In this document: one piece after another, positions 2,409 through 57,058 of the stretch
How positions within the stretch are numbered: position 1 is the first letter of the stretch
How the letters are laid out: each line of letters begins with the position of its first letter
Source: Bryobacterales bacterium
GTDB lineage: Bacteria; Acidobacteriota; Terriglobia; Bryobacterales; Bryobacteraceae
Direction: 5' to 3'
DNA: 64,000 nucleotides
Assembly: GCA_003164035.1 (NCBI GenBank)
Contig: PLRS01000004.1
Location: 1-64,000, forward strand
Notes under the pieces: model-generated
What the model saw: the letters and a program-made list of their open reading frames with translations, nothing else
Databases searched by the model: none
Told to the model about the DNA's origin: nothing
Program-made: the position numbers and the translations under genes

Positions 2409-2486
2409 AGCCACAGATGAACACAGATGAACACAGATGAAGAAATCAAAGGATTTATCTGTGTTTATCTGTGTTCATCCGTGGCT
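2409..2486. repeat. Palindromic repeat (CACAGATGAACACAGAT type) at the start of gspH
   Basis: Left arm 2409-2438 and right arm 2457-2486 are 30 bases each with two mismatches. The left arm itself holds a tandem GAACACAGAT unit. The gspH ATG at 2437 overlaps the last bases of the left arm, so the loop and right arm are translated as part of the gspH leader. Repeats of this type recur in many unrelated bacteria. No second copy was seen in this window. Confidence 0.9.
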
Positions 2487-3000
2487 AAGATTTGTTTTTT
2501 CAAAGCTTCCCCGCAACCGCCGCGGCGTCACTTTGATCGAAATGTTGATCGTGGTGGGGTTGATCGGGCTGCTTGCCGGCATCTCTTATCCCACCGCCTC
2601 GGCGGGTCTCGATAATGTGCGCCTGGCTTCGGCCACCGAAGAGGTCGCCAGCTTCCTCAACGCCGCCGTGACGCGCGCCGAACGCCGCCAGCAAGCCGTG
2701 GAAGTGGAGATTTCCCTGCCGCGGAACCGGCTGGCAGCGCTGGCCGCCGACGGCACCGAGCGGCACTTCGATCTGCCCGACGGCATCGCGCTCGAAGCCG
2801 TGTTGCCGCCGCTGACCGGCGCCGAAACCGGCGTCTCCGCGGCCAGCGACGAAACCGGCAATCGCCATTTCCTGCTGCTCCCGGGCGCTACCGTTCCGGC
2901 CATCGGGGTGGAACTGGCCAACCGGCACGGCGGCCGCAGAATCGTGCATCTCGACCCGATGACCGGCTTTCCGAACGTGGAAAGCGTCGTAAAGAAATAG
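2437..3000 (+). CDS. gspH: Minor pseudopilin GspH with repeat-derived leader
   Basis: Minor pseudopilin of the type II secretion tip complex. The prepilin motif RRG|VTLIEMLIVVGLIGLLAG is clear, with cleavage after Gly30 and Glu35 at +5. The 187-residue length fits GspH. The leader is 30 residues, whereas 6-15 is usual, and residues 1-17 or so are read from the CACAGATGAAC palindrome. The ATG at 2437 has no obvious Shine-Dalgarno, being surrounded by repeat. An in-frame GTG (codon 9) is a possible alternative start, also inside the repeat. Its position between gspG and gspI supports the GspH call. Confidence 0.88.
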   Translation: MKKSKDLSVFICVHPWLRFVFSKLPRNRRGVTLIEMLIVVGLIGLLAGISYPTASAGLDNVRLASATEEVASFLNAAVTRAERRQQAVEVEISLPRNRLAALAADGTERHFDLPDGIALEAVLPPLTGAETGVSAASDETGNRHFLLLPGATVPAIGVELANRHGGRRIVHLDPMTGFPNVESVVKK

Positions 3001-3003
3001 CCG

Positions 3004-3444
3004 ATGCGGCAAACCCGAACCCGCGGTTTTACCCTCCTCGAAGTGTTGGTGGCGACGGTGATCATGGCGATCGCCGTGACGGCGCTGCTCACCGGCCTGT
3101 CCGGCGCGGTGCGAAACGCGTCCCGCCTGCGCGACCACGACCGCGTGGCGCAACTGGCCCGGCTGCGCATGAACGAACTGCTGGTAGATCCCACCCTACC
3201 GCGCAACGCCTCCCTGGGCGGGCGGTTCGACGGCGGGATTGCGGGCACGCTCGATGCCGGCTGGCAGGCCCTGGTGACACCCTTTTCCACCCCGCCGTCG
3301 CCCGGCCCCCAAATGCTGGCGCTGGACCGCGTCGTGCTGCAAGTCTGGTGGAACGACGGGGGCACCCGCCACACCTTCACCCTGGAAGGGTACAAGGAAC
3401 ACATCCTGGTGGCGGACGATATCGCGGCGGCGGCCGCGCCATGA
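3004..3444 (+). CDS. gspI: Minor pseudopilin GspI
   Basis: Minor pseudopilin of the tip complex. It has a short normal leader of 8 residues (MRQTRTRG) and then FTLLEVLVATVIMAIAVTALL, with Glu13 at +5 and one membrane helix. The body of 146 residues includes the conserved block QLARLRMNELLVD. It starts 3 bases after gspH stops, and its stop overlaps the gspJ start as ATGA. Confidence 0.92.
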   Translation: MRQTRTRGFTLLEVLVATVIMAIAVTALLTGLSGAVRNASRLRDHDRVAQLARLRMNELLVDPTLPRNASLGGRFDGGIAGTLDAGWQALVTPFSTPPSPGPQMLALDRVVLQVWWNDGGTRHTFTLEGYKEHILVADDIAAAAAP

Positions 3445-4271
3445 AATATTACCGAGCCGCGACCGTCAGGGAGCGGTCCCGGCGCGCGGAACCGAGGCAA
3501 CGGCGCTCGAAACGCCTGCCCGGCAATGCCGGCGTCACCCTTATCGAGATGCTGATCGCCGTCACCCTGGTGGGACTGCTCTCGGTGGGAATGGTTTTTG
3601 CGATGCGGATCGGGCTGATGATTTTCTCTAAAACCAATGCCAAGCTGATGGCCGACCGCAAGGTGGTGGGCGCGCAGCGCATCCTCGAGCAGGAACTGGA
3701 AGGAATGGTGCCGTTCACGGTCGGCTGCACCGCATCCCTGGACGGCCAGGCGCCGATTCCAACCAGCGCCGTGGCCGGCACCACGCCATACTTTCACGGC
3801 GACGGCGCGACCATGCGCCTGGTATCGGCATTTTCGTTGCAGCAAGCCTGGCGCGGCCAGCCGCAGTTGCTCGACCTCCTGGTGATTCCCGGCGACGCCG
3901 GCGGGGTGCGGCTGGTGGTGAACGAGCTGCCCTTTTCGCCGCTCCTGGCCGGCGCCAACTGCACCGGTGTCGCCATCAATCCGGAGAGCGGGCTTCCGGC
4001 TCCTAATTTTCTTCCCCTGGTTCTCGGACCGCAGCCTTTCGTGCTGGCCGACCAATTGGCTTTCTGCAAGTTTTCTTACCTGATGAAAGCGCCCCAGAGC
4101 CTCAAACCGGTCTGGGCATCGAGCGCCGACGGAATGGTTTGGCCCATGGCCATTCGGGTGGAAATGGCACCGCTCGCGCCCGACCCGTCGCGCCTCCAGC
4201 CGTTCACCATCATGGCTCCCATCCGCCTGCACCGCGCGCCGGAGGTAAAGTATGTCGATATCAACCCCTAA
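3441..4271 (+). CDS. gspJ: Minor pseudopilin GspJ with repeat-derived leader
   Basis: Minor pseudopilin GspJ, 276 residues. The start is ATG 3441, overlapping the gspI stop. The prepilin site is NAG|VTLIEMLIAVTLVGLL, with cleavage after Gly31 and Glu36 at +5. The 31-residue leader contains YRAATVRERSR, the direct translation of one arm of the AACCGCTCC palindrome (3451-3478). The mature part resembles GspJ in length and has two Cys (in VGCTAS and GANCTG) that could pair. The 3' end overlaps gspK by 20 bases. Confidence 0.9.
   Translation: MKYYRAATVRERSRRAEPRQRRSKRLPGNAGVTLIEMLIAVTLVGLLSVGMVFAMRIGLMIFSKTNAKLMADRKVVGAQRILEQELEGMVPFTVGCTASLDGQAPIPTSAVAGTTPYFHGDGATMRLVSAFSLQQAWRGQPQLLDLLVIPGDAGGVRLVVNELPFSPLLAGANCTGVAINPESGLPAPNFLPLVLGPQPFVLADQLAFCKFSYLMKAPQSLKPVWASSADGMVWPMAIRVEMAPLAPDPSRLQPFTIMAPIRLHRAPEVKYVDINP
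3451..3478. repeat. Single arm of the AACCGCTCC family inside the gspJ leader
   Basis: ACCGAGCCGCGACCGTCAGG followed by GAGCGG matches the right arm of the 631-700 palindrome. Only one arm is present, and it is translated in frame as RAATVRER. The same peptide ends the kinase at 12311-13726. Confidence 0.9.
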
Positions 4272-5400
4272 GCGACGATCGCCGTGGGGCAGACCATCGT
4301 TGTATGTGGTCTGCCCCGCACCTGACACTCGACCCTTCCCACTTGTCCCCTCCTTTGGCCATCCGGAGGAAGCCCGGGCGGCAGACCACAAGAAACGATG
4401 GTCTGCCCCACGGAACAGCCAATCCGGCTCCGCCCTGCTAGCGGTGCTTTGGCTGGCGGCGGGGCTGGCGGCGATCGGGATTTCGGTATCGGCCACGGTG
4501 CGCGGGGAAACGGAGCGGGTGGCCACCGCAGAGGATAGCATGCGGGCGTACTACCTGGCTTCGGGCGGCGTCGAGCGGGCGATGCTGGAATACCTGTGGT
4601 CGACGCAGCAGGCTCCCGATAAACGCACCATTCCCATCGGAGCCAACGCGGTGGTTTTTTCCTTCCCCAGCGGGGTGGTGCGGGTGGAAATCATCCCCGA
4701 ATCTTCGAAAATCGATGTCAACACGGCAGCGCCGGAATTGTTGTACCGGATCGCGCTGGCGGTGACTGGCAACGATGCACGGGCGCGGGAGATAGCCGCT
4801 GCCATCGTCGACTGGCGCACGGGGTCGGCCCAGCCCACCGCTTTCGATCAGTATTATTCCTCCTTGATGCCGTCTTTTCGAGCCTCCCACTCGTCTATTC
4901 GAGAGATTGAGGAACTGCTACTGGTGAAAGGCGTTACCCCCGATATTTTTTATGGTTCGTACGCTCCGGCGGGAGGGTCGGCTTCCCCCGGAGCGGCGCG
5001 CCTGGCCGCGCGGCCGGGGCTGATGGATTGCCTGTCGGTATTCGGCAGCAACGCGGTGGATATTAACACCGTCAGCCCGGCCCTGCTGGCCGCTCTAGGT
5101 TTGGATCCGGGCATGATCGAGACCATCGTAAACCGGCGCTGGCAGCAGCCGTTCACGGCCTCCGAGCTGTCGGTGGTGCAGGGGGTCAATGGGCAGCTCG
5201 GAGTCGGCTTCCGGGTCGGAGGGAATACCATTTTCACCATGCGCGCCACGGCGCGGCTGCGCCTGGCCGGCGGCCGATATTCGGATGTGCGGCGAACGGT
5301 GGCCGCGATGGTGAAATACATGCCGCAGGGCTACGACGCGCCCTTTCACGTCTTGCGCTGGTACGATACCGCCTGGAGCGATTTCGCCAATGCCCGCTGA
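4252..5400 (+). CDS. gspK: Minor pseudopilin GspK with a 59-residue, repeat-derived leader
   Basis: Large minor pseudopilin that caps the pseudopilus tip. The family signature SGSALLAVLWLAAGLAAIGISVSATV is present, with cleavage after about Gly59 and, as is normal for GspK, no Glu at +5. The body contains the GspK helix-hairpin blocks (SKIDVNTAAPELL and AVDINTVSPALLAALG). In other bacteria the ALLxVLW helix lies about 5-15 residues from the start. Here residues about 11-54 are encoded by a 132-bp nested palindrome (4282-4413) whose length is a multiple of three. No in-frame ATG lies between the repeat and the helix. The gene overlaps gspJ by 20 bases and gspL by 11. Confidence 0.9.
   Translation: MSISTPKRRSPWGRPSLYVVCPAPDTRPFPLVPSFGHPEEARAADHKKRWSAPRNSQSGSALLAVLWLAAGLAAIGISVSATVRGETERVATAEDSMRAYYLASGGVERAMLEYLWSTQQAPDKRTIPIGANAVVFSFPSGVVRVEIIPESSKIDVNTAAPELLYRIALAVTGNDARAREIAAAIVDWRTGSAQPTAFDQYYSSLMPSFRASHSSIREIEELLLVKGVTPDIFYGSYAPAGGSASPGAARLAARPGLMDCLSVFGSNAVDINTVSPALLAALGLDPGMIETIVNRRWQQPFTASELSVVQGVNGQLGVGFRVGGNTIFTMRATARLRLAGGRYSDVRRTVAAMVKYMPQGYDAPFHVLRWYDTAWSDFANAR
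4282..4413. repeat. Nested two-hairpin repeat (GGCAGACCATCGTT type), in-frame inside gspK
   Basis: The 20-base ends CCGTGGGGCAGACCATCGTT (4282-4301) and its exact reverse complement (4394-4413) bound a 132-bp unit. Each end is also a hairpin of its own (GGGGCAGACCA pairs with TGGTCTGCCCC). Related units lie at 16861, 43315 and 54846. This copy is translated as part of the gspK leader. Confidence 0.95.
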
Positions 5401-55081: not shown

Positions 55082-57058
55082 CTACCGCCCCGCGAGTTGC
55101 CGGAACAGCGCCGCGTCGGCCTTAGCTTCGGCGGCGTGGCCTTGTTGCGCCGCCAGGCGGGCGCGCAGATCGAGCACGGTTGGGAAGTAGAAAGCCGCGA
55201 ACGGCGACAGGCCGTGGACCGGCGGGACCGGGGTACGCGCCAACAGGGCGGCGGCCTCGGCGAGGCGTCCGGTTTCGAGGTCGCACTCGGCCAGCAGCAC
55301 CGGCAGCCCTTCGTCGCTCGATCCCTCCCCGTTGGTGTACATCCGCTCGAACACTTCGCCCGCGCCGGCGAAATCGCGAGCCAGCAGCAGGGCGTGCGCC
55401 AGCGCGTAATCGCGGATTTCGGTTTCCGCGGCGAGAGGGGCGAATTTACCAGCGCGGACCTTCCATTCGGCGGCCGCGGCGGGCGGCTGCGCCAGGAAGG
55501 CGGCGATGGCGGCGGCAGTGGAAGTGGCTCGGTCGCCGGTTTCGCGGGCCTTTCGGGCCATGGCTTCGGCGCGCGGCCGGTCGCCCGCGACCAGGCTCCA
55601 GACCGCCAGACGCACGTAAGCCCGGGAGGCGAGAGAACGCTGCGGCCCTGCTTCCGCCTTTTGCGCCATGGCTTCGAGGCGGGCGAAAGCGGCCTTGGGC
55701 TGGCCCACGGCCCACTGCCATTCGGCGTCGAAGAAATCGGCCGCCGGGTCGTGCGCTGCCGCGCGGGCGTCGCGATACTGCCGGGCGAGGGCGTTGGCGC
55801 CGGCCAGGTCGCCGGCCAGCAACTGGGCGAATGCGGCCTTGAAATAGTCGCCGGAGCCGAGAAAGCCGGGGGTCTTACGCACGGCTTCCAGATACAGACC
55901 GGCAGCCTGCCGGAAGCGCCCGCCGATCAGGTTGATGTCGCCCAGCGAATCGATGGGGTTGGGGTCGGCCGGCTGCAATTGCCGGTATTTTTCGAGCGCG
56001 CCGGTGGCGCCTTCCAAATCGCCGGACCAGGCGAGGGCGTAGGCCAGTTGGTTGAGCAGATTGGTATCGTCCGGCTCGACTTCGAGAGCATGGCGGTAGG
56101 CCTGCGCGGCGGGGCGATGATCGTGCCGGTTTAACGCCATTTCGCCCACCGAACGCCAGAGATCGGGATCGTGCGGGGTGAGACGGGCAACGGCCGACAG
56201 GGCTTGATAGCGCCCAGAGGCATCGCCGCGCAGGGCGGCCAATTCCACCGCGATGCGCGCCCGTTCCAGCGCCGGGATGGCCGGCCGGTTCAGCGCCTTT
56301 TCGAGCGTAGAACGGGCCTCGTCGGTGCCGTGCCGGGTTTCGGCGAGGAGCCGATAGGCGGGCGCAAAATCGGAATCGGCGGCGATGGCGCGCTCGGCGG
56401 CTTTAGCCATGGAAACGCTGTCCGGCGCTTCCAGAGCCTGGCTGTAGGCTTCGAGCGCGGCGGGGCTGTGGGTGCCGAAGCCCTCCGGATGGGGCGCGAG
56501 CTGGCGGGCCAGTTCCGCGGCGGCCGCCAGCACATCCGTTCCGGCAGCGGAAGCTTCCAGGCACGCCATATCGCGGCCGGTCCGCACATCGCGCAAGAAA
56601 AGCCGGGCATGGAGCCGCCCGCCCGCGGTCCAGTACGATCCGTACGCGACCCGGGTAGCGCCGACCGCCGCAGCCGCCGCGGTTTCGGTGGAGACGCCGG
56701 GACCCGATACCGGGCGCACACCCAAACCGCGCTCCGCCGCGCTCAACCGCGCCGCCGGGATGGCATAGATACCGGGCGCGCCGCGCAGTTCCTCGCCGAG
56801 AACCTGGGTGAAGGCGCGGCCGATCCAATCCTGGGCGGGGTCGGCCCCCAGGTTCTCGAATCGAACGATGGCCAGACGGGTCCATGGGGGTGAGGCGGAG
56901 TGCCGCGAACAGGCCGCGGCCACGAGGCAAAGCGCGGCCAGGATGATCCCTAATGTGGGACAGGCCTCCTGGCCTGTCGTTTTCAGGCGAAAGCGCCTGC
57001 CAGGTGTAAACGCCCCGAAGACAGGCCGGGAGGCCTGTCCCGCTTGCTTACAGGACAC
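55082..57058 (-). CDS. TPR lipoprotein-like protein with repeat-derived N-terminus
   Basis: 658 residues. The hydrophobic export region IILAALCLVAAACSRHS ends in a plausible lipobox (VAAAC). It is preceded by about 36 residues read from a palindromic repeat (56956-57044). Residues about 60-170 are a FlgO/TolB-like nucleotide-less domain (TRLAIVRFENLGADPAQDWIG, YGSYWTAGGRLHARLFLRD) as often found before TPRs. The rest is about ten TPR units. No ATG lies between the repeat and the hydrophobic segment, so ATG 57058, inside the upstream gene's end, is the likely start. It overlaps that gene by 11 bases. Confidence 0.82.
   Translation of the reverse strand: MSCKQAGQASRPVFGAFTPGRRFRLKTTGQEACPTLGIILAALCLVAAACSRHSASPPWTRLAIVRFENLGADPAQDWIGRAFTQVLGEELRGAPGIYAIPAARLSAAERGLGVRPVSGPGVSTETAAAAAVGATRVAYGSYWTAGGRLHARLFLRDVRTGRDMACLEASAAGTDVLAAAAELARQLAPHPEGFGTHSPAALEAYSQALEAPDSVSMAKAAERAIAADSDFAPAYRLLAETRHGTDEARSTLEKALNRPAIPALERARIAVELAALRGDASGRYQALSAVARLTPHDPDLWRSVGEMALNRHDHRPAAQAYRHALEVEPDDTNLLNQLAYALAWSGDLEGATGALEKYRQLQPADPNPIDSLGDINLIGGRFRQAAGLYLEAVRKTPGFLGSGDYFKAAFAQLLAGDLAGANALARQYRDARAAAHDPAADFFDAEWQWAVGQPKAAFARLEAMAQKAEAGPQRSLASRAYVRLAVWSLVAGDRPRAEAMARKARETGDRATSTAAAIAAFLAQPPAAAAEWKVRAGKFAPLAAETEIRDYALAHALLLARDFAGAGEVFERMYTNGEGSSDEGLPVLLAECDLETGRLAEAAALLARTPVPPVHGLSPFAAFYFPTVLDLRARLAAQQGHAAEAKADAALFRQLAGR
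56956..57044. repeat. Palindromic repeat (GGGACAGGCCTCC type) in the 5' end of the TPR gene
   Basis: GTGGGACAGGCCTCCTGGCC and the right-hand GGCCGGGAGGCCTGTCCCGC form the outer arms, and inner hairpins exist at each end (ACAGGCC...GGCCTGT). A fifth family, distinct from GGGACAGACGATC by sequence but built the same way. Translated as QAGQASRPVF...TGQEACPT. Confidence 0.9.

Follow-up and report, generated by a model that had tools for sequence, protein, structure and literature searches.

Dispersed palindromes in the predicted leaders of three type II secretion pseudopilins from a Bryobacterales genome

At three gene boundaries (gspG/H, gspI/J, and gspJ/K) of a Bryobacterales type II secretion operon, palindromic elements found throughout the genome lie in frame ahead of the prepilin cleavage site, and the best reading is that they are mobile insertions that are probably translated as leader extensions and tolerated. 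The anatomy of the elements, their dispersal, the lack of an alternative ATG, GTG, or TTG start, the recurrence of the pattern in relatives, and the lack of strong hairpins in mature pseudopilin coding sequence are direct observations. Because prepilin peptidase removes everything ahead of the cleavage site, such extensions could persist.

Anatomy of the operon and its long leaders

The window, the whole 64,000-nt stretch of DNA that was analyzed, opens with the end of gspE, followed by gspF (737 to 1951; PF00482, which served to find the operon in relatives), gspG, -H, -I, -J, and -K, and three further genes; this operon and all elements described in it are on the plus strand. The first two of the three further genes are probably gspL and gspM: the gspL candidate has PilM/PilN Pfam matches below or near the cutoff, and we take the next gene to be gspM by gene order, from its position after gspL. 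PF07963 (N_methyl) in GspG, -H, -I, and -J, the T2SSG and T2SSK_1st domains, and a gene order common to relatives identify a type II pseudopilin set, and each of the five pseudopilin genes has an open frame with its cleavage motif. When the frames were re-read, the leader lengths, frames, coordinates, and cleavage motifs of gspG to gspK agreed with the original prediction, including ordinary leaders of 14 amino acids (aa) in gspG (1953 to 2390; PF08334 and PF07963) and 8 aa in gspI (3004 to 3444; PF07963). Long, repeat-read leaders were likewise found in gspH (2437 to 3000; PF07963; 30 aa), gspJ (3441 to 4271; PF07963; 31 aa, with a start overlapping the gspI stop), and gspK (4252 to 5400; PF21687 [T2SSK_1st] and PF12836 [HHH_3]; 59 aa), with the reservation that the gspH leader may be only 22 aa from GTG 2461. 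Enumeration of all starts found no ATG, GTG, or TTG between the element and the prepilin cleavage site in gspH, gspJ, or gspK, so these leaders must be read from the repeats.

The gspH element belongs to family A (CACAGATGAAC). An inverted repeat at 2409 to 2486 (33-nt arms, 91%) follows the gspG stop and precedes the cleavage site of GspH; the palindrome claimed for this gene is present, but it is only the core of an element extending from about 2399 to 2504, with outer ends set by eye from flanks common to other dispersed copies, which also share its loop. Both possible gspH starts, ATG 2437 (30 aa) and GTG 2461 (22 aa), are within the element. GTG 2461 sits in the loop, 7 nt behind AAAGGA, and this AAAGGA is part of the element, since the loop GAAATCAAAGGATTTATC is found again in other family A copies. 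The element supplies either ATG 2437 or AAAGGA and GTG 2461, plus most of the leader. GspH of relatives (e.g., L178, L189, and L190) starts MPISSVGR or MRTSSVGN. The window still has this ATG (2365), which falls within the 3' end of gspG and is in frame with ATG 2437. From this old start (2365 to 2409) the window reads MPISAVGSDARGRN and then stops within the element (translation MPISAVGSDARGRN*ATDEHR*TQMKK), the frame being closed by TGA 2407 to 2409 and again by TGA 2428 to 2430, both of which are in the element. Judged from these sequences, the gspH element appears to have done more than land in a leader: it ended the old frame and brings a new start. No frame of the family A core is free of stops (at least one in each of the six), which leaves an inner start as the only way in.

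The gspJ leader contains a single arm of family B (3449 to 3477, with an exact 20-mer at 3457 to 3476), detected by repeat search and 97% identical to one arm of a full, dispersed palindrome in the untranslated gspE/gspF spacer (629 to 702; 35-nt arms, 94%). The predicted repeat arm is thus inside the leader, but it is not a palindrome pair, and it makes no hairpin with itself because only one arm is there. Translation of gspJ could begin at ATG 3441 or at a GTG further upstream, within gspI; L176, the closest of the named loci, reads MRRAEARCRRAG in gspJ where the window reads MKYYRAATVRERSRRAEPRQRRSKRLPGNAG.

In gspK, whose ATG 4252 is preceded by GGAGG at 4241 to 4245 (by eye), the leader contains a nested hairpin of family K (4282 to 4413), a dispersed 132-bp inverted repeat of two inverted REP-like units with 34-nt arms (91%) and 64 nt between the arms. 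Starts at ATG, TTG, and GTG would give leaders of 59, 43, and 41 aa, the last two from inside the element. By eye, family K has GTGG at 4284 to 4287 and its complement at 4408 to 4411, and no GT[AG]G foot was seen in family B. Four of six frames are open in family B and five of six in family K, so both families can be read through from a host start.

These features suggest a sequence of events in which palindromes would have inserted at the G/H, I/J, and J/K boundaries of an intact-looking operon. Families B and K may have been moved by RAYT enzymes and would be translated through from the start codon of the host gene. Family A would have closed the old gspH frame, its loop or arm providing a new start. 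The leaders would be translated and then cleaved, leaving the mature pseudopilins unchanged, and the pattern would have been made by selection against insertion in mature parts and not by site preference.

Dispersal of the repeat families and links to Y1 transposase genes

All three families are dispersed in their own genome, by BLAST and by a 20-mer count against a reversed control, which supports the view that the repeats did not arise by chance. The BLAST matches listed number 105 for the gspK element, 82 for the gspJ family, and 56 for the gspH element, figures that count overlapping and two-strand matches with 40 candidates scored for each and are neither copy numbers nor upper limits. 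Of 61 genomes searched, 26 have the family B 20-mer, which occurs 363 times in the window's own genome at one mismatch or fewer (0 for the reversed control), and 9 have the family A 18-mer, which occurs 31 times there. Copies were sampled from each family (24 of A, 29 of B, and 26 of K), and most of those from B (26/29) and K (18/26) are intergenic.

Twelve Y1_Tnp loci in the same genome were checked for flanking copies. Family K copies lie on both sides of the Y1 (RAYT-like) transposase gene in L390 (1173 to 1883), family B copies on both sides of that in L396 (1277 to 1859), and copies of a fourth family, D, on both sides of that in L391 (1376 to 2080). Families B and K therefore have the traits of REP/BIME elements, being many short dispersed palindromes, mostly intergenic, with a family-flanked Y1 gene, and the flanking on both sides marks them as REP-type families with their own RAYT. 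Family A (CACAGATG) was beside none of the 12 Y1_Tnp loci, and it classifies as an orphan palindrome by this flank test.

Leaders in related operons and competing explanations

To place these leaders in context, 106 operons were compared: the window, 80 loci, and the 25 of 40 further loci that were not already among the 80. Median leader lengths in relatives are 13 (GspG), 11 (GspH), 6 (GspI), 8 (GspJ), and 11 (GspK) aa. Leaders of at least 25 aa occur in 0/106 gspG, 14/106 gspH, 3/102 gspI, 4/101 gspJ, and 11/94 gspK genes, with lengths taken from the nearest possible start, by which gspH of the window measures 22 aa and is outside the 14. Removing the L075 gspH (its gspG again) and the L210 gspK (its motif sits 102 nt off the expected place) leaves 14/105 and 11/93.

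Leaders were scored for dispersed DNA, meaning sequence within the 75 nt ahead of the cleavage site that recurs in at least two other places. It is present in 20 of 40 leaders of at least 22 aa, 9 of 78 of 15 to 21 aa, and 29 of 389 shorter than 15 aa; sequences with N (e.g., L184 gspG) or under 75 nt were omitted. The difference between long and short leaders (Fisher P = 8e-11, from related operons that are not independent samples) holds without the three leaders of the window (17/37 long leaders; P = 7e-9). The original prediction would have failed if relatives had the same long leaders without repeats; instead, most leaders in relatives are short, and dispersed DNA is more frequent in the long ones. 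The idea of the leader as a safe harbor gains from both facts, but only in part, as the other 20 of the 40 long leaders had no dispersed DNA in a search base limited, for most relatives, to a single locus no longer than 13 kb. This base held 1.66 Mb of the window's own genome and only the operon loci of other genomes, so misses are expected in the latter.

Elements vary from species to species, and most operons have none. On a GspF tree built by a quick method, in which losses count as changes alongside gains, the long state (at least 22 aa) requires at least 14 changes for gspH (20/106 long), at least 12 for gspK (12/93), and at least 21 for a long leader in any gene (31/106). L209 and L211 have common long leaders and so were counted twice outside the tree. 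Among the relatives, L180 (genome G036, another genus) is the clearest parallel to the window: its gspJ leader, MNTDKTLVLDPCSSVFICGHG.., is a family A element, again with the ATG of the element, and the family A 18-mer has 62 matches in G036.

Strong inverted repeats (arms of at least 18 nt, 85%) were counted in the gspG-to-gspK stretch, excluding the F/G spacer and gspG leader, of 102 of the 106 operons (L191, L214, L069, and L075, with fewer than three genes, were dropped). All 18 found are at the G/H or J/K junction, within 20.7 kb of leader plus spacer, and none is centered in mature pseudopilin coding sequence in 286 kb. Eleven of the 18 reach the forced leader, but seven touch spacer only, and a more accurate account of the target is that it comprises the leader together with the G/H and J/K junctions.

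Those seven hairpins also bear on the strongest competing explanation, that elements simply land in the scarce noncoding DNA of a tight operon and longer leaders are a by-product, with no special tolerance of leaders. It draws further weight from 1.66 Mb of this genome, in which 249 of 316 repeated elements are intergenic (50 are in 5' regions, 12 are interior, and 5 are at 3' ends). A survey of 864 kb, with 80 to 89% of each stretch called coding, gave 67 strong inverted repeats, of which 62 are dispersed: 42 are intergenic, 14 lie in 5' regions, 4 are interior, and 2 lie at 3' ends. (The 1.66-Mb survey omits elements under 26 nt; the gspH element, below its copy threshold, comes from the 864-kb survey.) However, the 11 hairpins that reach forced leaders do not fit plain spacer insertion, nor do the gspJ and gspK elements, which stand behind the host start and are read through, and we consider this explanation unlikely, though the most serious of the alternatives.

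A role in regulation, in which elements are kept because a hairpin at each start sets the ratio of pseudopilins, is improbable. The fold predicts a hairpin over the start of gspH (−51.4 kcal/mol in 91 nt) and one of 34 bp in the gspK leader, but gspJ has no partner arm, the predicted start regions of gspJ (0.56 unpaired) and gspK (0.46) are no less open than that of gspG (0.36), and the elements are not conserved among species. This proposal, part of the original prediction, found no support, and a conserved regulatory hairpin at these starts was rejected; the fold leaves an effect on gspH in this species possible. Misjoined repeats in a draft of 169 contigs could mislead assembly, or the genes could be a decayed pseudogene array, but with dispersed families, five open frames with motifs, a gene order as in relatives, and the same pattern in other assemblies, chance was rejected and error or decay is extremely improbable.

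Elements in other presequences and relation to known systems

Translated insertion in prepilin leaders, the reading preferred above, may be one case of a wider phenomenon, in which cleaved presequences (prepilin leaders, signal peptides, and lipoprotein signals) are a general safe harbor for mobile palindromes and some elements bring a start codon that resets the gene start. We advance this extension tentatively, as somewhat short of an even bet. That every N-terminal overlap is translated was rejected, as translation could in many cases plausibly begin downstream of the element. By eye, 13 overlaps were judged translated: gspH, gspJ, and gspK, seven signal peptides or lipoprotein signals (C75:56957, C49:117026, where TTG starts lie just behind the element, C49:118502, with only one other copy in the sample, C125:116236, C43:33185, C74:172943, and C6:12158), and three others (C140:95814, C43:34915, with a GTG further on, and C49:139865, three codons only). 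The five 3' cases of the 1.66-Mb survey were outside the overlaps read by eye.

Sampled copies outside the surveyed stretches added two presequence cases in the same genome. In L156, a peptidase S13-like protein takes its start and signal peptide from a family A element, and in L101, a family K unit lies in the n-region of an SCO1-like protein. Within the window itself, a TPR-containing putative lipoprotein (55082 to 57058, minus strand) has a family D palindrome as the n-region of its signal (element at 56957 to 57041), and translation could begin ahead of the lipobox only at a GTG that lies upstream of this palindrome. Pfam assigned five of nine proteins to export-type families (OEP, Peripla_BP_2, M14 carboxypeptidase, SCO1-SenC, and Peptidase_S13); the other four were a TPR protein, a caspase-like C14 protein, and two without a match.

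An excess of elements in signal peptides over a loose baseline (390 of 1,140 genes signal-like) is suggestive only, as reading by eye favors signal peptides: any start within a hydrophobic stretch was discounted, whereas those in other proteins were allowed. Translated and untranslated N-terminal cases were not told apart by a codon-score test. In-frame elements also occur inside mature proteins, as counterexamples, at C158:155721-155820 (L343), C74:107007, and C45:12964. The first is a dispersed palindrome read in frame inside what we take, by motif, to be a P-type ATPase; the second host is presumably a membrane protein, and the third element is presumably a linker behind a possible signal peptide.

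Coding palindromes have hitherto been taken as near-neutral inserts in mature proteins, and a cut-off leader seems to be a spot within a gene where mobile DNA is tolerated. If cleaved presequences were a main refuge, this would show how repeats can multiply in tightly packed genomes while function is kept, and how start codons and leaders turn over; it would also caution gene callers against dismissing an unusually long and strange leader. The refuge idea can be tested in Bryobacterales, where some operons have a given insertion and others lack it.

Palindromes that code for protein are already known, and translated leader palindromes extend that phenomenon; no paper on repeats in prepilin leaders was found among the open-licence papers searched. 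Many short repeats are noted for the Solibacter genome in PMC3174227. Rickettsia palindromic elements (RPE) occur in protein-coding genes (Ogata and others 2000, as described in PMC2229807). As in that account, dispersed palindromes are here read in frame within open genes, namely gspH, gspJ, and gspK, a likeness of trait; the account has RPE inserts remaining in the mature protein, whereas here three families lie in cut-off leaders of one operon. GTAG/CGTC REPs and REPtrons, in the passages of PMC3733652 and PMC6006769 drawn on here, are likewise many-copy short palindromes in inverted pairs that flank Y1 transposase genes, and some lie inside open reading frames, a number of them at the N terminus. 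Those passages do not link REPs to prepilin leaders, and PMC3733652 suggests that many N-terminal REPs are possibly extragenic because translation may start downstream; gspH, gspJ, and gspK differ from many such cases in having no downstream start. YPAL/RU-2 is a small mobile element that, according to PMC2759123 and PMC2229807, is part of a cleaved N-terminal sequence, the predicted signal peptide of YPO1552. That is one predicted gene, whereas the pattern described here recurs in orthologous prepilin leaders.
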